A stretch of 64,000 nucleotides of DNA from Aureococcus anophagefferens. Its lineage: Eukaryota > Sar > Pelagophyceae > Pelagomonadales > Pelagomonadaceae. The notes beneath the pieces were generated by a model. It was not told where the DNA came from, did no database searches, and worked only from the letters and a program-made list of their open reading frames with translations. Made by a program: the position numbers and the translations under genes. Position 1 is the first letter of the stretch. Each line of letters begins with the position of its first letter. The stretch is taken from assembly GCF_000186865.1 (NCBI RefSeq), contig NW_008705565.1, forward strand, positions 315,927 to 379,926, in the 5' to 3' direction. This document shows, in pieces, positions 1,773 to 62,946 of the stretch.

Positions 1773-2781
1773 ATGGTGGTGCTGCAGCTCCTGCTGCTGC
1801 AGCGCGTCGCGGCGATGCGCGCGCCCCGCGCGCCGTCGCTCGCAACGAACCGACGCGCGGCGCTGCGCGGCGCCGCCGCGGTCCTCGCGACGGCGGCGCT
1901 GCCGGCGAGCGCCGCGCCGCCGCCCGTGCCCGGCGCCTTCGACTACTTTTCGCAGTGCGCGAGCGTGCCGCGGGCGCTCGTCATCAACAGCGTCGACGTC
2001 GACGCGACCGTGGCCTTCTTCTCCAAGGCGCTGGGCATGGACTGCGTGTCGCGGTCGCCCGACGGGTCCGCGCCGGCGTCCCGCGGCCGCGACGATGTTC
2101 GAGAGGTTTGGGGTGGGAACACGATGAGCAATCGTCACCGTCATGCGTGGTAGGTCCGCGCGAGTGAGCTTCGGGCCGACGCAGCTCTCGCGGCCGGCGG
2201 ACTTTGTTCCGGGCATCTCGTCCTTCGAAGTCGACGGCGGCCACTTCGCCCTCGAGGTGCGGCCGTCGCCGGCGGCCGCCCCCGCCGAAGCCGTCGCCTA
2301 CGTGCAGCTCGCGCTGCCGACGCTCCGCGCGTCCAAGGTCCTCGCCTTCGGCGGCGAGGTCGTCGACGCCTACGGCGTCTGGAACGTGGTGGCCCCCGGC
2401 GGCGTTCCCGTGCGGCTCCTCGTCGGCGACGAGCGCCGCGACCGCGTCATGTACGTCGCCTACCGCGTCCCGGACGCGAAGAAGGCCGCGGCGTTCTACG
2501 GCGCCTACGGCTTCGCCAGGGCGCCCTACCCGCGCGCGCGGCCGCCGACGGCCGACGAGTCGCCCTTCGACCCGAACCCGCCGAAGAACGCCGTCTACCT
2601 CGAGTCGTGCGCGGACGCCGTCGGCGTGCTCCTCATCCCGGAGAAGAAGAAGCGCAAGGCCGCCGACGCGCCCGCCGCGGGGGCCGACGCCGTCGGCGCG
2701 CTCCGCCTCCGGTCCGCCGACACCGCGGGCGTCGCGCGCGACGGCGCGGGCCTCGTCGTCGACCTCGCGGGGGACATCTAA
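1773..2781 (+). CDS. VOC (glyoxalase/dioxygenase superfamily) protein, probably thylakoid-lumen targeted
   Basis: Two exons, 1773-2065 and 2154-2781, 306 residues. The N-terminus has a hydrophobic signal segment (LQLLLLQ), then a basic stretch and a second, Tat-like signal (NRRAALRG followed by an alanine-rich core and ASAA), as expected for delivery through secondary-plastid membranes into the lumen; the targeting is inference. Two VOC half-domains follow: ALVINSVDVDATVAFFSKALGMD with its continuation, and VMYVAYRVPDAKKAAAFYGAYGF to the C-terminus. The exon junction gives RSPDGSARVSFG in frame and restores the first half-domain. Substrate and metal ligands were not assigned. The stop codon lies at the start of a diverged tandem duplication. 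Confidence 0.8.
2066..2153 (+). mobile_element. Short introner (88-bp GT-AG intron) in the VOC gene
   Basis: The intron begins with GTCCGCGC and the same eight bases follow its terminal TAG, giving a perfect 8-bp target-site duplication. The first two bases of the left copy are the 5' splice site; the inserted segment (2074-2153) starts CGGCGTC and ends GTGGTAG, supplying the 3' AG. Length 88 is exactly the frame offset needed between the two exons. Without removal the upstream frame stops at 2151-2153. Confidence 0.85.
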
Positions 2782-3093: not shown

Positions 3094-3807
3094 ATGGGGC
3101 CCGCCGACGCGCCGATCCTGCCGTCGAAGGATGCGGCGGAGCCGAAGCGCGGCCGCGCGTTCAGCGTCTTCGCGCTGATGCTCGGCGCCACGGCCGTCGC
3201 CGCCGTCGTCCGGTCGACGACGGTGCTGAGCGCCGTGTCCACGGGCGCGGAGCTCGCCGTGAACGGGCGGGGGCTGTACCACTGCAAGAACGGCTACCCC
3301 GACGTGCCCAAGGCCTACGACCGCGACTGGGGCGACCTGACGGGCGACTGGTACGTGGTCATGCAGAACCCCGCGGACCAGGCGCGCGAGTTCGAGTGCG
3401 ACCGCATGGTCTTCGACATGCGCAAGGACGACGCGCGGCTCCGCCAGTCCATGCTCTACGAGCGCGAGGGCACGGATTACTACTGGAACGTCACGCAGGC
3501 GGAGTACAAGGACCGCACGGGCGTGTGGAAGGACACGGAGAACCAGTTCTGGAGCTCCGTCTACGCCGTGGGCACGGAGGACGACGGCTCGCGCTGGGTC
3601 GGCTGGTACTTCTGCGGGCCGGCGGTCGCGGCGACGAAGAAGGGCATCTCCTATATCCTCAAGGACTCGACGGACGGCCTCACGAAGAGCTTCTACAAGA
3701 AGGCGCGCAAGGCCGCGAACGCCGCGGGCGTCAACGACTACGGCAAGATGGTCGAGGTCGACATCGAGGACTCCTGCGACTACACGTTCCCGACGGCGGG
3801 CGTCTAA
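3094..3807 (+). CDS. Lipocalin-like membrane-anchored or lumenal protein
   Basis: 237 residues, single exon. A basic N-terminus (PKRGRA) is followed by one hydrophobic segment at about residues 26-50 that could be a signal anchor or the second part of a plastid presequence. The remainder is soluble, beginning with a Cys-containing YHCKNGYPDVPKAYDRDW and a DLTGDWYVVMQNP stretch that resembles the opening GxW strand of lipocalins and of the lipocalin core of violaxanthin de-epoxidase-like proteins. Further aromatic strand-like segments (WSSVYAVG, WVGWYFCG) follow. No de-epoxidase catalytic motif is visible. The family call is tentative. The stop codon sits in a short tandem repeat. Confidence 0.55.
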   Translation: MGPADAPILPSKDAAEPKRGRAFSVFALMLGATAVAAVVRSTTVLSAVSTGAELAVNGRGLYHCKNGYPDVPKAYDRDWGDLTGDWYVVMQNPADQAREFECDRMVFDMRKDDARLRQSMLYEREGTDYYWNVTQAEYKDRTGVWKDTENQFWSSVYAVGTEDDGSRWVGWYFCGPAVAATKKGISYILKDSTDGLTKSFYKKARKAANAAGVNDYGKMVEVDIEDSCDYTFPTAGV

Positions 3808-3862: not shown

Positions 3863-4869
3863 TTACTTTTTAAGGGCCGCGTTGCCGAAGCAGGGCGCGT
3901 AGCGAGGCGCGTCGGGCCGCGCGACGGCGGCCGCCGCGCCCGCGCCGCCGACGGCGACGATCGGATAGGCCGCGTCGAAGGAGCCCCGCACGCCCGGCCG
4001 CACGCGCGTGCCCGTGGGCACGTAGCGCACGATGAACGCGAGGCGCCGCCGGCCGCTCCGGTTCGGGTCCGACCGGTGGATCGTCCACGCCTAGGCCGAG
4101 GTCCGCGTTTCCGACGCGCGTATCGCCGGCGGACGCCGGTCCGCGCGGAATGGGCCTCCGCGTCGCCCCGCCGGAGGAGGACCTTGCGGGCCCCGGAGAC
4201 GTTGAGCTTCGCGGCGTCGACGGACAGGTTGAAGTTGTCGAAGCCGTCCGTCGAGCCGCCCGCGTCGACGACGAGCTCGTCGACGCTGCGGCCCCGCGAC
4301 TCGGGCTGCGCGGCGTACGGGAGGACGTCCATGGGGCCGTTGCGCTCCGTGACGTCGTCGAGCGCGACCCACACGGACGCGACCTGCGGCGCGACGTCCG
4401 TCGACCCGGGCGGCACGAGCGGCCAGTAGTTCGAATCCTGGTGCCAGCAGATCTCCTTGCCCGTGTGCGGCATCTTGCAGAGGATGCGCGACGTGAAGAC
4501 GGAGACGTCGTCCGCGCCCAGGAGCCGTCGAGCCAGCGCCAGCATGCGCGGCAGGCGGCACGCCGCCAGCACCTCGGGGACCGTGAGGTGGAGGTTCAGC
4601 AGGTCCTCGGGCGCGAGCTCCGGCGGCCGCGCGTCGACGAGCGCCGTGCACAGCGCGTCGAGCTCGTCGAGGCTCGCGCCGGCGAAGAGCGCGATGGGGA
4701 AGACGCAGCCGTTCGCCCGGTACTCGGAGGCGACGGCGTCGAGCTGGGCAGCCCACGCAGCGTCGTCGTCGTGCTGGGCAGCGCCGTCACCGTCCTGGGC
4801 AGCAAACTGGGCAGCTCCGGCGGCCGAAGGCATCGCGGTGGCGCCGTCCTGGGCAGCATTCCAAGGCAT
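3863..4869 (-). CDS. Phytanoyl-CoA dioxygenase (PhyH) family 2-oxoglutarate/Fe(II) oxygenase
   Basis: Two exons on the minus strand, 4869-4147 and 4090-3863, 316 residues. The iron-binding HxD is in ICWHQDSNYWPL near residue 142. After splicing, the distal half reads AHSAWTIHRSDPNRSGRRRLAFIVRYVP, with the third iron ligand His and the 2-oxoglutarate-binding Arg in the usual PhyH context. Both phases are 0, and the junction falls inside this motif. The unspliced frame runs into Arg-rich nonsense. The first 35 residues are repeats of AAQ/AAQD from a tandem DNA duplication, so the exact start (4869 or 4833) is uncertain. Substrate unknown; the family includes halogenases and small-molecule hydroxylases. 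Confidence 0.88.
4091..4146 (-). mobile_element. Short introner (56-bp GC-AG intron) in the PhyH gene
   Basis: On the minus strand the intron begins GCGCGGAC and GCGTGGAC follows its terminal CCTAG: an 8-bp target duplication with one mismatch. The insert starts CGGCGTC, as in the VOC and ASST-like genes. The 5' splice site is GC, taken from the duplicated target. At 56 bp it is very short, and removing it restores the PhyH motif. Confidence 0.8.
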
Positions 4870-4932
4870 CGCGGTGGCGTCGTCCTGGGTAGCAAACTAG
4901 GCAGCTCTGGCATTCGAAGGCAGCGCAAGCGC
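4783..4932 (-). repeat. Imperfect tandem repeats covering the 5' end of the PhyH gene
   Basis: Units of about 50 bases (CGTCCTGGGCAGCAAACTGG ... GAAGGCATCGCGGTGGC) at about 4791-4842 and 4881-4932, with a shortened unit between. The repeats contain the candidate start codons and encode the AAQ-rich N-terminus. Confidence 0.7.
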
Positions 4933-5107: not shown

Positions 5108-5941
5108 ATGGAGACCATCGAGATCCCGTCGATCCGCCTGGACCGCGAGGCCTTCGAGCGCATCCGCGAGGCCCTCATGGTCGTGCTGTCGCTGCTCAGC
5201 TTCTGGGTCATGGCGGCGGCGGAGACGAGCCACCACTACCAGTACCACTACAAATTCTACCCGTCGCTGACCTTCTTCGTCTGGGTCGGCGTGCTCTCCT
5301 TCGTCTACACGCTCGGCATGGCCGTGGGCACGCGCACGGGCGCGCTGGGCGTCGAGCTCCGGCGGCAGCTCGAGACCGCGGGGCCGCCGGTCCTGGCCTG
5401 GCTCACGTACACGGCGGCCATCGCGGCGTCGGCGACGTCGACGGACCTCCACGCGACCTTCGACGAGAGCGACGGGCCCGTCTGCAAGGCGCGGCACGGG
5501 GCAGGAAAAGAGTGCGAAATTCCCAACTTCAAAGGCTCCTCTCTCGGCCGTTTTCCACTCGTTTTGGCTGATTTTTGGACGAGCGATCATCTCTCGGAAC
5601 GGTCTCGAAGCGTGGATGCTTTTTCCGGAACGCGCGCGCGCGGAACACTCACGTTGAAGCGAACTTGAATCACTCTTTTTCCTGCCCAGGCGCGTCAGTC
5701 GCACGCGCGCGCGGTCGCGGGCGCGTTCTTCTGCGGCCACGTCGTCACGGCGACGGTCTTCATGTACGGCCTCTGCGCGGCCTACGTCGGCGTCGTCGTC
5801 TCGTCCGTCTACGGCGGCGGCGGCTTCGCGAGCGACGTCGAGGCGCCCCGCGTCGGCTTCGCGGGCACGACGGGCTACAACGAGATCGACGCGTCGGACC
5901 TGCCGCCCGCGCCGCCGAGCCACCAGAACATGGCGCTGTAA
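5108..5941 (+). CDS. Four-transmembrane protein, MARVEL-like topology
   Basis: Two exons, 5108-5488 and 5690-5941, 210 residues. Four hydrophobic segments are visible: LMVVLSLLSFWVMAAAET, LTFFVWVGVLSFVYTLG, VLAWLTYTAAIAAS and, after the exon junction, FFCGHVVTATVFMYGLCAAYVGVVV. The loop between helices 3 and 4 carries a Cys (GPVCKARQSHARAV) formed across the splice junction. Both ends are probably cytosolic; the tail is acidic and Pro-rich. The topology is that of MARVEL/CASP-like four-helix proteins, but no family motif is firm. Two short GAGCCAAAGTTTGCCG repeats lie upstream at about 5008-5045. Confidence 0.75.
5489..5689 (+). mobile_element. Long introner (201-bp GC-AG intron) in the four-TM gene
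   Basis: The intron starts GCGCGGCA and is followed by GCGCGTCA, an 8-bp target duplication with one mismatch. The insert starts CGGGGCAGGAAAAGAGTG and ends CACTCTTTTTCCTGCCCAG, so it carries imperfect terminal inverted repeats of about 16 bp. It is clearly homologous over its whole length to 29632-29829. The GC 5' splice site comes from the target, the AG from the element. Confidence 0.92.
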
Positions 5942-28881: not shown

Positions 28882-30738
28882 ATGTTCTCCATCAGCCTCT
28901 GCGGGGCCGACGACGGCGTCGACGAGAGCGTCGACTGCTTCGAGAGCGACGACGTCGAGGACGACACGCCTCGGAGCCACATGGCCGAGCTCGCCCTGAG
29001 GGCGCGCGTCAACCGGCGGCTGCGGTCCGCGACGCCCGGGGCGCGCGCGACGCTCACGCTGAGCCCCGGCGAGGTCCACGTGCTGCGCCTCCTCACGGAG
29101 CCGAGCGGCGACCACGTGGCGAGGGCCGACGTCAAGGCCACGGACAAGAGCAGCGAGGACTTCTTCGACCGGCTCCGGAACCAGGTGAGCGCCGACAGCG
29201 ACACGCGCACGGCGGAGAGCGTCATGTCGGCCTTCGGGGCGACGCCCAAGTCGCGGCGCGACGACGTCCGGGCGGCCCTGCGGGCGCCGCGCGGGGGCAA
29301 GCGCGCGGGCCGCGCGCGGTTCCAGGGCGCGATCAAGAAGGTCATCCAGACGAACCGCTTCCGGAGCGCGCTGGGCCCCCCGGACCGCCTGCCCAAGGAC
29401 CTCGGCGAGGCCCAGCGAACGCAGATCCGCGCGGCCTTCGCGCGCGTCGACGGCTGGGACTTCGACCTCTGGGCCGTCTCCGACGCCGTCGCCGGCGACG
29501 GCAAGCTCGCGGCGCGCGTCGTCGCGGAGGAGATCATCCTCGAGCGGCGCCGCGTCGCCGCGACCCGGTCGCCCGACTTCTGCGCCCTGCTGCGCGCCTT
29601 CTTCGCGAGCGTGCTCGACCGCTACGAGCGCGTGCCGTACGGGGCCAGGAAAAGGGTGCGAACTTCCCAAGTTCAAAGGCTCCTCTCTCAGCCGTTTTCC
29701 ACTCGTTTCGGCTGATTTTTGGACGGGTGATCATCTCTCGGAGCGCCCTCGAAGCGTGGATGCTTTTGGTGGAAAACGCGCGCGCGGATGACTCAAGGTT
29801 GAAGCGAATGTGAATCGCCCTGTTCCCAGGTGCCGTACCACGGCGCGCTCCACGGCGCGGACGTGCTCCAGTCCGCGCACGCGCTCCTGATCCAGAACGA
29901 GGCCTTCGACGGGTCCCTCAACGAGGACACGATTCTGGTCGTGCTCGTCGCGGCGCTGGCCCACGACGTGGGCCACCCGGGGCTCACGAACGCGTTCTTG
30001 GTGGAGACGCAGCACGAGCTCGCGGTGCGCTACAACGACCACAGCCCCCTCGAGAACATGCACAGCCGCGTGGCCCTGGACCTGGCGCGGCCCTGGCTCG
30101 CGACGCTCGACGCGGACGCGCGGAAGCGCGCGCGGTCCACGTGGATCGAGCTCGTGCTCGCGACGGACATGAAGGAGCACGCGGCGGCCATCTTCCAGGT
30201 CGAGCACGCGCTGTCCAAGGACCCGGCCTACGACGCGCGCGCGGTCGCGAACCACACGACGTGCCTCAAGCTGCTCATCCACGCCGCGGACCTGTCGAAC
30301 CCGACGAAGGCCTGGGCGACGTACGACCGGTGGACGGCGAAGATCATGGAGGAGTTCTACGCGCAGGCGGACCGCGAGGCGGAGCTGGACCTCCCGCGCA
30401 CCGTGCCCCCGCGGGGCCAGTGCGAGATGGACAAGTTCCAGCTCGGCTTCATCGGCTTCATCCGCCCGCTCTTCGTCGCCGCGTCGAAGATCCGCCACCT
30501 CGACATGCGGCCGCAGGTCGAGGGCCTCGACGCCGTCGCCCGGGTCTGGCAGGACAAGGCCAAGGCCGCGGACGAGCCGCAACCGGCGGACGAGGCGCGC
30601 CCGCCGCCGGAGCCAACCTGCGACCCGCCCGGATACCGCCGCGAGGGCGCGCCGCCCGCCGGCAAGCCGGAGCCCGCCGCGCCGCCGCCCGCGCCCGAGC
30701 CCGAGCCCGGCGCCGTGGTCCGCGAACGAGACGACTGA
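28882..30738 (+). CDS. 3',5'-cyclic nucleotide phosphodiesterase (PDEase_I)
   Basis: Two exons, 28882-29631 and 29830-30738, 552 residues. The N-terminal half is a variable regulatory region. Across the junction the catalytic signature reads RVPYHGALHGADVLQ, with the metal-binding and general-acid His. The remaining metal ligands are HD in LAHDVGHPGLTN, NDHSPLENMHS, and Asp in LIHAADLSNPTKAW. The C-terminal part (MDKFQLGFIGFIRPLF) is the usual end of the domain before a Pro-rich tail. It hydrolyses cAMP and/or cGMP; specificity is not readable. Start at ATG 28882 (GCCATGT); the frame is open further upstream. The intron lies inside the active-site motif and is an introner. Confidence 0.93.
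29632..29829 (+). mobile_element. Long introner (198-bp GT-AG intron) in the phosphodiesterase gene
   Basis: GTGCCGTAC is found at both edges: at 29632-29640 starting the intron, and at 29830-29838 starting exon 2. The insert begins CGGGGCCAGGAAAAGGGTGC and ends CGCCCTGTTCCCAG. Blocks such as TTCAAAGGCTCCTCTCTC, CCGTTTTCCACTCGTTT and CTCGAAGCGTGGATGCTTTT are shared with 5489-5689. The GT of the left target copy is the 5' splice site; the AG belongs to the element. Confidence 0.94.
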
Positions 30739-47846: not shown

Positions 47847-49679
47847 CTATCGCGCGCAGGTGAAGGCCAGGGGCGTCGACGAGACGCCCCAGACGCTGTG
47901 GACGACGACGCTCGCCGCGCTCTCCGGCGCGTCGAGGTCCACGCGGACCGTCGACGTCCGCCACATGGCCTCCATGGAGAAGGACCCCGTCTGGATCGCG
48001 ACGCCCGCCGCGTCCAGGATGTCGAAGTCGGTCTCGTAGGCGTCGTTCATCTTGACGAGGTCCCAGGCGTCGAAGCGCAGCGCGCCGTCGGCGCAGGACG
48101 CGCGCGACACGAGCGGCTCGTCGAAGAACTTCTCGACGGCGTAGGCCGCCCAGCCGACGACCTCCTCGAGCGTCGGGTCGTTGTTGTAGCGCGTCTCGTT
48201 GCCCGTCGTGCCGTAGACCTTGAGGTCCAGCGCCGACGTGGGCTGGCCGCCGTCCAGGGGCCGCGTGACCTCGACGACGGCCGCCTCCCACGTGATGTCG
48301 TCGGTCATCGTCGTCGGCCAGTAGAGCGACAGCACGTTGCCTACCAAGTGCGACGGGGTCGGAACTCTTTTCAGGCGACATTCGCGCGAAAAAAACACTC
48401 GCGTCGCTCGACGCCGCGCGTTGCCCGTGGGCATCCTATCCGCGTCGCCGTAGACGAAGGCGTAGGGCACCTGGTAGTCCCAGACGACGCGCGCGACCAT
48501 GGCGTCCATGTCGAGGTTCACGACGGCGACGCGGGACCGCAGGTCCGTCGCGTTCCGCGAGTTCGCGAACACGAAGTAGTCGCCCTCGCCAAAGTATTCC
48601 AGGCCGTGGTTCACGTGCCAGAACGAGTAGTTCCGCGCCTCCGTGTCCGCGCGGCTCCCGTCGATGTCGTACATCGCAAAGTCCGTGGCCCGCCCGCCGA
48701 CGCACCACTGCGTCTCGAGCGTCTTCTGGTCCATGAGGAAGAAGGAGCAGACCTCGGGGTCCGCGGCCTTGTTCCCCGTGAGGACGACCGCGTCCTGCTG
48801 CAGGTACTGGATGTGGTTCGGGTAGTTGGGCAGCGCGTAGACGTTGAAGCGCACGAGGTCCATCGCGCCCGTCTTCGTGTCGTAGCGCGCCAGGCCCGTC
48901 GAGTTCTCGTTGAGGTCCTGCAGCGCGTAGAACTTGGACGTGCCCGAGGGGGCGTCGTAGACGAGCGACGACGCGTGCGAGTCGATGAGGAGGTTCGTCG
49001 TCTCGTCGGGCACGACGTAGGGCGCCGTGTCCGTCTTCCACTCCCAGAGGTACGGGTTCCCCGCCTTGATGCGGCCCGAGTTCGACATGAGGAGGAAGGC
49101 GTCCGGGCTATAGTAGCGCATGCCGTCCACCGTGACGCGCAGGAGGTCGTCGATTTCGTCGCCCTGCGAGTCGTAGGGCAGGCTCGACGGCACGATCGTC
49201 GCCGCGCGGATCGTCCCCGTGGGGCTGAACACCACGAGCAGCGACGCCGTCGACGTGTCCAGCGTGTACTGGTTGAAGCACGTCGCGAGCCAGCCGGTGG
49301 CGCCCTCGCCGAGGTCGCCCTCGAGCGCCGCGGCGTCGAAGGTGAAGACCATGCTCGAGGGCAGGTACTGCTCGACGCACGCCTCGTAGTCGTACATCTG
49401 CGTCACGCAGCCCTGGTCGCCCATGTCCGCGAGGGCCTCGCGGACTTTAGGGAACTGGCGCACGAGGTCCATGGCGGTGACCGTGACCGTTCGCTGCTGC
49501 GGTTCGCGTTTCGCCCGGGTCGCCAGCAGCGCCGCGCGGCTCGGCGACGCGCCGCCGGTCCAGGCGGCGACGCCGAACACGGCCAGCAGCCCCAGCGCGT
49601 TCAGCGCCACGACGCGCCCGGGCCCGCGTTCCTTCGTCGTCGGCCGGAGCACGTGGGTCCCATAGCTGGATCGCAGCAT
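47847..49679 (-). CDS. Arylsulfotransferase (ASST)-like membrane-anchored protein
   Basis: Two exons on the minus strand, 49679-48425 and 48340-47847, 582 residues. A basic N-terminus and one signal anchor (RVVALNALGLLAVFGVAAW) precede a large lumenal beta-rich domain. Blade-like units include AYTLDTS-type strands, TNLLIDSHASSLVYDAPSGTS, NHIQYLQQDAVVLTGNKAADP, RNYSFWHVNHGLEYFGEGDYFVFANS and VVNLDMDAMVARVVWDYQVP, resembling the six-bladed propeller of ASST-type proteins. After splicing the junction reads DADRMPTGNVLSLYWPT, a typical ASST strand. Catalytic His could be that of WHVNHG; this is not certain. Pairs head to head with the MYND gene (102 bases between starts). Confidence 0.7.
   Translation of the reverse strand: MLRSSYGTHVLRPTTKERGPGRVVALNALGLLAVFGVAAWTGGASPSRAALLATRAKREPQQRTVTVTAMDLVRQFPKVREALADMGDQGCVTQMYDYEACVEQYLPSSMVFTFDAAALEGDLGEGATGWLATCFNQYTLDTSTASLLVVFSPTGTIRAATIVPSSLPYDSQGDEIDDLLRVTVDGMRYYSPDAFLLMSNSGRIKAGNPYLWEWKTDTAPYVVPDETTNLLIDSHASSLVYDAPSGTSKFYALQDLNENSTGLARYDTKTGAMDLVRFNVYALPNYPNHIQYLQQDAVVLTGNKAADPEVCSFFLMDQKTLETQWCVGGRATDFAMYDIDGSRADTEARNYSFWHVNHGLEYFGEGDYFVFANSRNATDLRSRVAVVNLDMDAMVARVVWDYQVPYAFVYGDADRMPTGNARRRATRVFFSRECRLKRVPTPSHLVGNVLSLYWPTTMTDDITWEAAVVEVTRPLDGGQPTSALDLKVYGTTGNETRYNNDPTLEEVVGWAAYAVEKFFDEPLVSRASCADGALRFDAWDLVKMNDAYETDFDILDAAGVAIQTGSFSMEAMWRTSTVRVDLDAPESAASVVVHSVWGVSSTPLAFTCAR
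48341..48424 (-). mobile_element. Short introner (84-bp GC-AG intron) in the ASST-like gene
   Basis: On the minus strand the intron starts GCAACGCG and is followed by GCAACGTG, an 8-bp target duplication with one mismatch. The insert starts CGGCGTC and ends TTGGTAG, as in the VOC gene. It is a multiple of three and free of stops, so gene finders would read through it; splicing gives the smooth join MPTG|NVLSLYW. Confidence 0.8.
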
Positions 49680-49781
49680 GGTGGGCGCCGCTTGGGGGAG
49701 GCTGCCCATCGCACGCTGACAGAGAATATCCGAACTTCTCAAGGTTGATGTCGAAGTTTGAGAGAAGCTGCCCCCAGGACG
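49680..49781. promoter_or_regulatory. Short bidirectional upstream region (ASST-like / MYND)
   Basis: Only 102 bases separate the two start codons, so both promoters and 5' UTRs must lie here or overlap the genes. No specific element recognised. Confidence 0.4.
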
Positions 49782-51164
49782 ATGGGCCAGCGGAAGAAGC
49801 AAGGTGCTGCGGGGGGAGGGAGCACGCCGCCCCCGGGCGGTGCTGCGGCGCCAGGGCCGGCGGGCGGCGCGTCGCGGGCCAACGGCGGTGCGCTCTCTGA
49901 AGGGTCGGCATCTGAAGGATCGCCATTCGACGGGCTGTCCGAGGTGCAGCAGAAAGCATTTGTCTGGATGGTCAATTTTTTGGGCCCGCTCGAGGGCCGC
50001 GCCCGAGAGCTGCGAGACAGGACTCGCGGCAAGTCGGAGCTGATGGTCTTGGACCTGCGCGTGCGTCGCGGCGCGGACCCGCCGCCGGACGCGCGCGTCC
50101 TCGCGGAGGCGCGGCTGTTCTCGCGCGGCCGGCCGAGGAGCATTGTCTCGCACATGGATGACATCGGCTATCCCGTTTCCTACGGCGAGCCGCAGGTCGC
50201 TCTCATCCTGTCCAAATGCGAAGTCCTGCGCGAGGCGGACACGATGCTCATCTGCTGCGTGGGGGACTCGGTCCCGCCGGGAGGCGGGCCACTGCCGCCC
50301 AACTTCAGCCACTCCTTCCTGAGCACGTGCTTCGACCAGCTCCGGGAGATCCGCAGCGCGTTGGCGAAGCCCGCGAGGCCCAAGGAGCGACCGGAGCCGG
50401 AAGCGGTCTGGAGGACGCGGGACGCCCGCCTCGCGTGCGGAAATTGCGGGACTCACGAGGGGAAGATGCTGTCCTGCGCCGGTTGCGGGCAAGTGCGTTA
50501 TTGCGGGCGCTTGTGCCAGAAACAGGCCTGGTCGCAGCACAAGGAGGAGTGTAGAAAATACCAGAAGGTCGCGGCCGACGTCGACGCCATGGGCCAAAAG
50601 ATGTCGGAGAGCGCGTCGCTCCGAGTGCACACGAATGGCAAGGAGGTGGTCAAGCACCTCTCGGGAGCGGGACTCGACGCGATGATCACCCCCGAGGATG
50701 CCGCCGCCTTCCAGGTGAAAGTCGAGCAGTTCGCGAACGTCATGGTTCGGGAAGGATACCTGTCGAAGCTCGTCTGGGGGATGAGGTGCAACAAATTTAG
50801 CACCGCGGGGGGCCTATCTGCCGACGTCGTCCGGCGCAAGGGCCTCGACGGGACCCGGAAAATCCTCTGCATGATCAAAAACGCGGCTTTCGAGGACTGG
50901 CTCGCGCGGCACATGAAAAGCCTCGAGCTCGTCGGCCGCGCCTGTTCCGAGCTCGCGATGACGCTCTTGGATGAGGACGACGTCCGCCTCTGCAAAGGCA
51001 AGGGGATGACGGGCGTCGACGTCTTGAGCAGGCAGCTGCGCAATCCCGACTTCGACCCGAAAGAGGGCTTCCTCTGCATGTTCATCGACCCCTCCTACGG
51101 GCCGTACGCGGACGCGACCCTCATCGTCCGGTGGGACCTCCGCTTCGAGTGCGAGGCTCCGTAG
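49782..51164 (+). CDS. MYND zinc-finger protein
   Basis: 460 residues from ATG 49782. A Gly/Pro/Ala-rich start is followed by a region of unknown type (LSEVQQKAFVWMVNFLGPLEGRARELRD, VSHMDDIGYPVSYGEPQVALILSKCEVL). The MYND finger is at about residues 222-262: CGNCGTHEGKMLSCAGCGQVRYCGRLCQKQAWSQHKEEC, with all zinc ligands. The C-terminal 190 residues (SLRVHTNGKEVVKHLSGAGLDAMI ... FDPKEGFLCMFIDPSYGPYADATLIVRWDL) have no recognised family. MYND fingers mediate protein contacts. GC content and codon use are lower than in neighbours (several AAA, AAT, TTT codons), hinting at a different history, such as expansion of a lineage-specific family. Confidence 0.8.
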   Translation: MGQRKKQGAAGGGSTPPPGGAAAPGPAGGASRANGGALSEGSASEGSPFDGLSEVQQKAFVWMVNFLGPLEGRARELRDRTRGKSELMVLDLRVRRGADPPPDARVLAEARLFSRGRPRSIVSHMDDIGYPVSYGEPQVALILSKCEVLREADTMLICCVGDSVPPGGGPLPPNFSHSFLSTCFDQLREIRSALAKPARPKERPEPEAVWRTRDARLACGNCGTHEGKMLSCAGCGQVRYCGRLCQKQAWSQHKEECRKYQKVAADVDAMGQKMSESASLRVHTNGKEVVKHLSGAGLDAMITPEDAAAFQVKVEQFANVMVREGYLSKLVWGMRCNKFSTAGGLSADVVRRKGLDGTRKILCMIKNAAFEDWLARHMKSLELVGRACSELAMTLLDEDDVRLCKGKGMTGVDVLSRQLRNPDFDPKEGFLCMFIDPSYGPYADATLIVRWDLRFECEAP

Positions 51165-62712: not shown

Positions 62713-62754
62713 GGCGCGCCGGGCGCGATTCCCCCTAAGACGACGAAGACCAGT

Positions 62755-62946
62755 CCCCGGGGTTGTCGTTACGCGTCGAAGGCGACGAGCTTCAGCACCG
62801 TCGCGAGCGAGGAAGCATTCCCCGGGGTTGTCGTTACGCGTCGAAGGCGACGAGCTTCAGCACCGTCGCGAGCGAGGAAGCATTCCCCCGGGGTGAGAGT
62901 CGTTACGCGTCGAAGGCGACGAGCTTCAGCACCGTCGCGAGCGAGA
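62755..62946 (-). repeat. Tandem triplication of the F-box gene 3' end
   Basis: Three units of about 65-69 bases share TTACGCGTCGAAGGCGACGA and GCTTCAGCACCGTCGCGAGCGA. Read on the minus strand each encodes LATVLKLVAFDA followed by TAA. The innermost one (62903-62946) is the true gene end; the other two are nearly identical to each other. Confidence 0.93.

Follow-up and report, generated by a model that had tools for sequence, protein, structure and literature searches.

Introners have been documented to generate introns en masse. Those of Aureococcus anophagefferens, as treated by Huff, Zilberman and Roy in Nature in 2016, are reportedly short non-autonomous DNA elements in which one splice site is carried by the element and the other is said to be co-opted from the duplicated target. 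Transposons of the hAT group, in turn, make 8-bp duplications, start with CAG and have CTG at their 3′ end.

As far as the available parts of the papers go, A. anophagefferens introners are about 210 bp long (PMC9481584) and carry direct repeats as well as inverted repeats whose length is constant, their splice motifs being canonical (PMC7789003); the introners of Huff et al. 2016 are remarked on in a further paper too (PMC10228655, likewise in part). Gozashti et al. 2022, in the part of the text available (PMC9860276), describe from Aureococcus sp. TARA_AOS_82_MAG_00129 an introner family 4 that carries both splice sites and is flanked by 8-bp duplications. An introner of this family occupies scaffold positions 3289-3365 (77 bp), and its insertion is described as lengthening the mRNA by 12 nt, of which the element contributes 4 and the target 8. 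The same part of that paper gives GC 5′ splice sites at 0 to 50% per introner family. Here we analysed a 64,000-nucleotide stretch of A. anophagefferens DNA (the window; G000:C5:315927-379926), in which a sequence-only reading had recognised three short introns of one family, together with the genome that contains it (49.05 Mb in 86 contigs).

Three inserts in the window and their host genes

When the window was re-read, all three inserts were found where the sequence-only reading had placed them (Table 1), on the shared plan that it had described: target copies matching at 8/8, 7/8 and 7/8 bases, and inserts of 80, 48 and 76 bp (in the VOC, PhyH and ASST-like genes, respectively) that begin with CGGCGTC directly after the left copy and end in TAG. 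Taking out the left copy together with the insert removes 88, 56 and 84 nt and leaves a single open frame in each gene. The accompanying proposal, that splicing at the first base of the left copy restores the frame, holds for VOC and PhyH; in the ASST-like gene the unspliced insert is in frame and open, within an ORF (47847-50657) that spans it, so that for these 84 nt frame restoration is uninformative. The window has a G+C content of 62 to 77% (in 4-kb steps) and contains 126 CGGCGTC words on both strands, three of which match the insert plan against 0.33 expected. This chance rate was obtained from 254 seven-letter words of similar abundance, CGGCGTC included, which gave 69 plan matches in 26,464 words; one other of the 254, GTCCGCG, also reaches three plan matches in the window. 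Given the expectation of 0.33 and this second word, the window by itself is weak evidence, and copies elsewhere in the genome become decisive. Window positions 62754-62945 hold 2.9 repeats of a 65-bp unit, with 96% identity.

Table 1. Positions, in window numbering, of the inserts, their target copies and the genes that hold them
Feature	Window positions	Strand	Details
VOC-gene intron	2066-2153	+	Left target copy GTCCGCGC 2066-2073 plus 80-bp family A element 2074-2153
VOC right target copy	2154-2161	+	GTCCGCGC, exonic; 8/8 against left copy
VOC (glyoxalase-type) gene	1773-2781	+	306 aa with intron out; Pfam Glyoxalase 26.6 bits; homologues
PhyH-gene intron	4091-4146	-	Left target copy GCGCGGAC 4139-4146 plus 48-bp insert 4091-4138
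PhyH right target copy	4083-4090	-	GCGTGGAC, exonic, codes conserved A-W; 7/8 against left copy
PhyH gene	3863-4869	-	316 aa with intron out; Pfam PhyH 76.9 bits
ASST-gene intron	48341-48424	-	Left target copy GCAACGCG 48417-48424 plus 76-bp family B element 48341-48416
ASST right target copy	48333-48340	-	GCAACGTG, exonic; 7/8 against left copy; same as single copy of empty paralogue
ASST-like gene	47847-49709	-	592 aa with intron out; homologues
193-bp introner-like insert	5489-5697		Target copies GCGCGGCA/GCGCGTCA; CGGGGC start, CCCAG end
190-bp introner-like insert	29632-29837		Target copies GTGCCGTA/GTGCCGTA; CGGGGC start, CCCAG end

Homologous proteins were compared across the three junctions. 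The closest named relative of the VOC protein is the A. anophagefferens gene model SO694_00118096 (P0003), which is nearly identical in its N-terminal part and extends into the next window gene after VOC. At the VOC junction, P0003, a gene model, and the MMETSP product P0004 have the same length as the protein spliced at the target duplication; in other relatives the length differs by between one and a few residues (one extra in P0002), which makes this region only mildly informative. The ASST-like protein has no Pfam family at 0.001, and its relatives carry arylsulfotransferase-type Pfam accessions; its DxxPxGN motif is unbroken and without extra residues in all five relatives that cover it (P0013 and P0015-P0018), with one residue give or take upstream of the motif in P0015. 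In PhyH, the motif A[WY]T[ILM]HRS is unbroken in 11/11 insert-free relatives (13 of the 36 matches were aligned), and the left target copy would code R where the right copy codes the conserved W. A real PhyH intron is thus supported, as a prediction from homology. Metagenomic proteins P0012 (99%) and P0019 and P0020 (96%) run, by eye, into inserts at the ASST and PhyH sites, indicating that these two insertions are also present in environmental populations. Short CTGGGCAGC-type repeats stand at the start of the PhyH gene (window 4739-4920), and P0019 and P0020, the environmental PhyH relatives, have differing numbers of N-terminal repeats.

Dispersed families, target duplications and an empty site

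The VOC insert has at least 41 matches in the genome (40 of 228 candidates scored) and the ASST insert at least 40 (40 of 86 candidates scored), each count including the insert itself, while a genome search with the PhyH insert yields no copy besides the insert itself. The first two inserts are members of two dispersed introner families, A and B, with consensus sequences of 80 bp (from 65 copies) and 81 bp (from 68 copies); the ASST copy measures 76 bp against the 81 bp of its family. Both consensus sequences start with CAGCGTC and end in CTTGGTAG, and their middles are unrelated. What the sequence-only reading took for a single short family is therefore two families with common ends, which the PhyH insert joins by its ends only. 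The introner nature that it assigned to the VOC and ASST inserts, with a TAG borne by the element, is supported by dispersed copies that have their own target duplications, and the further copies that it anticipated exist for these two inserts and not for that of PhyH.

Patterns for the 3′ end, with up to one mismatch, occur at 154 places for family A (backward control, 0) and at 99 for family B (backward control, 4). Copies that have changed further, or that carry A at the ninth base past the end, escape these patterns. We examined 140 loci: the best 30 per family, which include both window copies, were joined by 80 taken from the pattern lists, where 53 exact A matches and 67 B matches remained and 40 of each were used; the 138 copies left after subtraction of the two in the window are the basis of the genome counts. 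Target copies are exact in 92 of the 138, and have at most one mismatch in 121 and at most two in 131. The script that finds the ends favours good target matches and known starts, a bias gauged by swapping right flanks, which in 1,371 trials gave 0.2%, 6.4% and 26%, respectively. A few copies fit duplications of 7 or 9 bp better than 8. Among the 131 copies with at most two target mismatches, 93 start with CAG and 30 with CGG, so that the CGGCGTC earlier regarded as the family terminus is a variant of the commoner CAGCGTC. Both consensus sequences contain subterminal inverted repeats (stems) with the outermost bases unpaired, their ends not being perfect inverted repeats, and neither shows unusual folding (fold-energy z of -0.20 and -1.30).

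The genome also contains a paralogue of the ASST-like gene that is unbroken at the insertion point; of the 138 residues searched, residues 1-137 align to it with 85% identity. Aligned to the window, its DNA lacks exactly 84 bases where the insert lies, has two small gaps upstream (9 and 3 bases) and carries a single GCAACGTG, equal to the window's right target copy. The change is therefore in the left ASST copy, as would be predicted for sequence inside an intron, and an intron-free relative with one target copy, envisaged by the sequence-only reading, was found for this site. The ASST piece has about two dozen relatives in the genome (25 matches, of which two are to the window gene), and one of these relatives has a family A copy nearby (L013, C7:1324853).

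The status of the PhyH insert is different. Its middle has no likeness beyond chance to the best of 133 A and B members, with 79 of 300 shuffles equalling its internal score, and its end-to-end scores, which look significant, include the common terminal bases. We therefore rejected it as a proven family member: it is present once and its middle resembles neither family, so that its ends are what would make it a member, at best a decayed or internally deleted one.

Several further features of the copies were noted. By eye, variants of A and B copies genome-wide are often shifted from A/T towards G/C, one example being a start that reads CGG instead of CAG, as if inserts drifted toward the base composition of their host with age. 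One 70-bp copy (L169, G000:C5:2204104-2204582) combines a family A-like start with a family B-like end (CGACGCACTTGGTAG), which indicates that mosaics or further subfamilies with the same ends exist. Two copies, at C1:2377462 and C13:429452, have an identical target sequence; the idea that they are parts of a larger element was dropped, only 139 bp being common. L157 and C13:429452 have the same target, GTTCAGCG, and the 139 common bases comprise the element and some downstream bases. Viral contigs gave no match to three exact end patterns (19 to 23 bases), in a collection that may omit records near this genome.

The 193-bp insert of Table 1 (element 5489-5689) represents a larger family, with 2,123 first-look candidates, 40 of them scored. 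Ends were placed by script in 16 of 20 stretches, the target copies being exact in 14 and differing by one mismatch in two, and all 16 have a GC or GT start. The ends of this family, CAGGGCAGG or CGGGGCAGG and CCTGCCCAG, are near-perfect inverted repeats. A 3′-end pattern from the window copy found 2 places, because the family consensus differs there from the window copy.

Predicted splice sites, placement in genes and rival explanations

The left target copy starts with GC in 87 of the 131 copies, GT in 42, TC in 1 and GA in 1. The bases that follow the 3′ end are likewise GC or GT in 98 of 99 B matches (the remaining one is TA), in 62 of 63 exact A matches (the remaining one is GA) and in all 37 one-mismatch A places read by eye, these A counts covering all but 54 of the 154 places. 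In the right copy, position 1 is G in 131/131 and position 8 is C in 74/131. At the level of sequence, one predicted splice site thus lies in the element and the other in the target copy, TAG by construction of the copy list and GC or GT in 129/131. Target preferences of transposases tend to be symmetrical, and for a one-sided GC/GT rule a splice requirement is the simpler cause; part of the GC/GT start could come from target preference, clear intergenic copies being absent from the comparison set. On these grounds splicing is predicted, in both families, to remove the stretch that begins with the left target copy and ends with the TAG.

Placement was judged with a codon model trained on five window genes, three of which are the intron genes. 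By the set margin 131 of the 138 copies score as sense coding and two (L128 and L157) as antisense, and 126 are sense with both flanks in one frame; at 4,000 random sites of the same window the corresponding values were 42%, 45% and 38%. Ten loci, most of which had scored weakly or inconsistently, were inspected by eye, and L093, L110 and L127, for example, look coding; the flanks of L157 have no sense-coding score. Copy lengths are not divisible by three in 118 of 133 copies (those with good target matches, window copies included), so that retention would break the frame. There are almost no intergenic copies, a scarcity that appears to go beyond simple transposition with purging of antisense insertions, and insertion bias is the only explanation that we can offer; such a bias is reported for some introner families in the available part of PMC9860276.

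We interpret families A (~80 bp) and B (~81 bp) as short non-autonomous DNA-transposon-like introners in which the element brings the TAG, the duplicated target brings the GC or GT, and splicing is predicted, a reading to which we give a probability of about 0.88. It builds on what was directly observed, namely the dispersed families, the target duplications, one empty paralogous site, the sense coding placement, the GC/GT start and the consistency of the frames. Transposition, splicing itself and the history of the PhyH insert are the steps that we infer. A putative transposase would insert the element into coding sequence, duplicating usually 8 bp of the target; the 3′ end of the element, CTTGGTAG, would act as the 3′ splice site, the GC or GT with which the left target copy begins would supply the 5′ splice site, and splicing would take out the left target copy and the element, giving an mRNA as before the insertion. 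The PhyH intron would most likely have the same origin and have later decayed or lost its middle. Searches of the genome for a transposase gave no match for MULE (the search did match in control genomes), none for KDZ (a search without a working control) and 0 for hAT PF05699 (0/14 in the controls as well). Both families consist of short and numerous elements, recent enough for target duplications to be exact, which, with the empty ASST site in the same genome, makes the birth of an intron readable base by base.

The published layout, in which both splice sites lie within the element, would place the 5′ site at the GT in C(A/G)GC|GTC and add 12 nt per insertion. It gives no reason for the GC or GT at the target start in 129/131 copies, even if it has been published, in the available part of PMC9860276, for an Aureococcus introner of matching length and family B measures 77 bp from the internal GT to the TAG. 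The 12 retained nucleotides would keep the frame, and the internal GT stands at the standard distance in 126/133 copies by script and in a 127th (L147, missed by the search word) by eye. However, L026 has lost the internal GT, and in four copies (L054, L102, L126 and L151) the retained stretch would be 13 or 11 nt long, which would shift the frame. For each of these frame-informative copies the coding score favours removal that starts at the left target copy (42 v -54, 53 v -11, 76 v -39 and 68 v 18, respectively), so that 4/4 speak against a 12-nt addition in this indirect, sequence-level test; in L099 a normal start is missing and the two flanks give different frames. Splicing at the internal GT would also lower the PhyH Pfam score from 76.9 to 67.4 bits, a loss expected of any insertion, which shows just that four extra residues would disturb the PhyH domain. 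We consider element-borne splice sites on both sides unlikely here.

Less probable still is that the inserts spread not as DNA transposons but as RNA, with introns reverse-splicing after their release. The 8-bp target duplications (exact in 92/138), the empty ASST site with its single target copy, the subterminal inverted repeats of both consensus sequences and the presence in the same genome of a larger family with near-perfect terminal inverted repeats all stand against it, whereas the nearly strict sense coding placement (131/138 sense, 2/138 antisense) is what it would have in its favour. Least probable of all, to the point of being hardly credible for the set as a whole, is that three unrelated ordinary short introns have common ends by chance. 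The window alone, with 0.33 matches expected and another word that reaches three, would have allowed this, and it may hold for the PhyH insert, which is without relatives; for the VOC and ASST inserts it is ruled out by scores of genome copies, each with its own target duplications. DNA-transposon-like introners spliced at the target copy are thus our preferred reading. Going further, we lean, by somewhat more than even odds, towards the view that these ~80-bp introners build mostly GC-AG introns that are kept almost only in sense coding sequence and removed precisely, that the published 12-nt addition is a gene-model artefact of an internal GT preferred over a GC 5′ site, and that introners elsewhere could be misdelimited where GC sites are ignored. 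The GC majority and the frame test together make a clear prediction for RNA-seq on whether introners alter host proteins.

Comparison with described systems

Families A and B resemble the introners that Huff et al. reportedly described in 2016 in host lineage, in being short and non-autonomous and in the predicted co-option of a target splice site. Both they and the 193-bp family resemble hAT transposons in their 8-bp duplications, and the 5′ ends CAGCG (A and B) and CAGGG or CGGGG (193-bp family) recall the hAT CAG start; the 3′ ends differ, being TAG in A and B and CCCAG in the 193-bp family, not CTG.

In the literature that we covered, which was without most subscription papers and all supplements, we met no description of a GC majority for introners, and we do not claim that it is unreported. 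In our copies GC accounts for 87/131 5′ sites, compared with 0 to 50% per family in the available part of PMC9860276. Compared with the A. anophagefferens introners as described in the parts of the papers available, A and B are shorter, at ~80 bp against about 210 bp (PMC9481584), and differ in their imperfect inverted repeats and GC majority at the 5′ site (PMC7789003). The 193-bp family (window 5489-5689) is the better match to those elements, its length being close to about 210 bp (PMC9481584).

A family this short, which the sequence-only reading had offered as a new inference, had in fact been published already, in the 77-bp introner of the Aureococcus MAG with its 8-bp duplications (PMC9860276, available part). 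Family B is like that family 4 in its 8-bp duplication, in the 4 element bases that precede the internal GT and in the 77 bp that remain from there (81 - 4), a length and layout from which, rather than from a comparison of sequences, we think that the two are probably the same family. Unlike family 4 as presented in that part of the paper, the copies examined here favour splicing at the target copy over element-borne sites and 12 added nucleotides. A and B are well supported as DNA-transposon-like introners, an element type already described from this host lineage.
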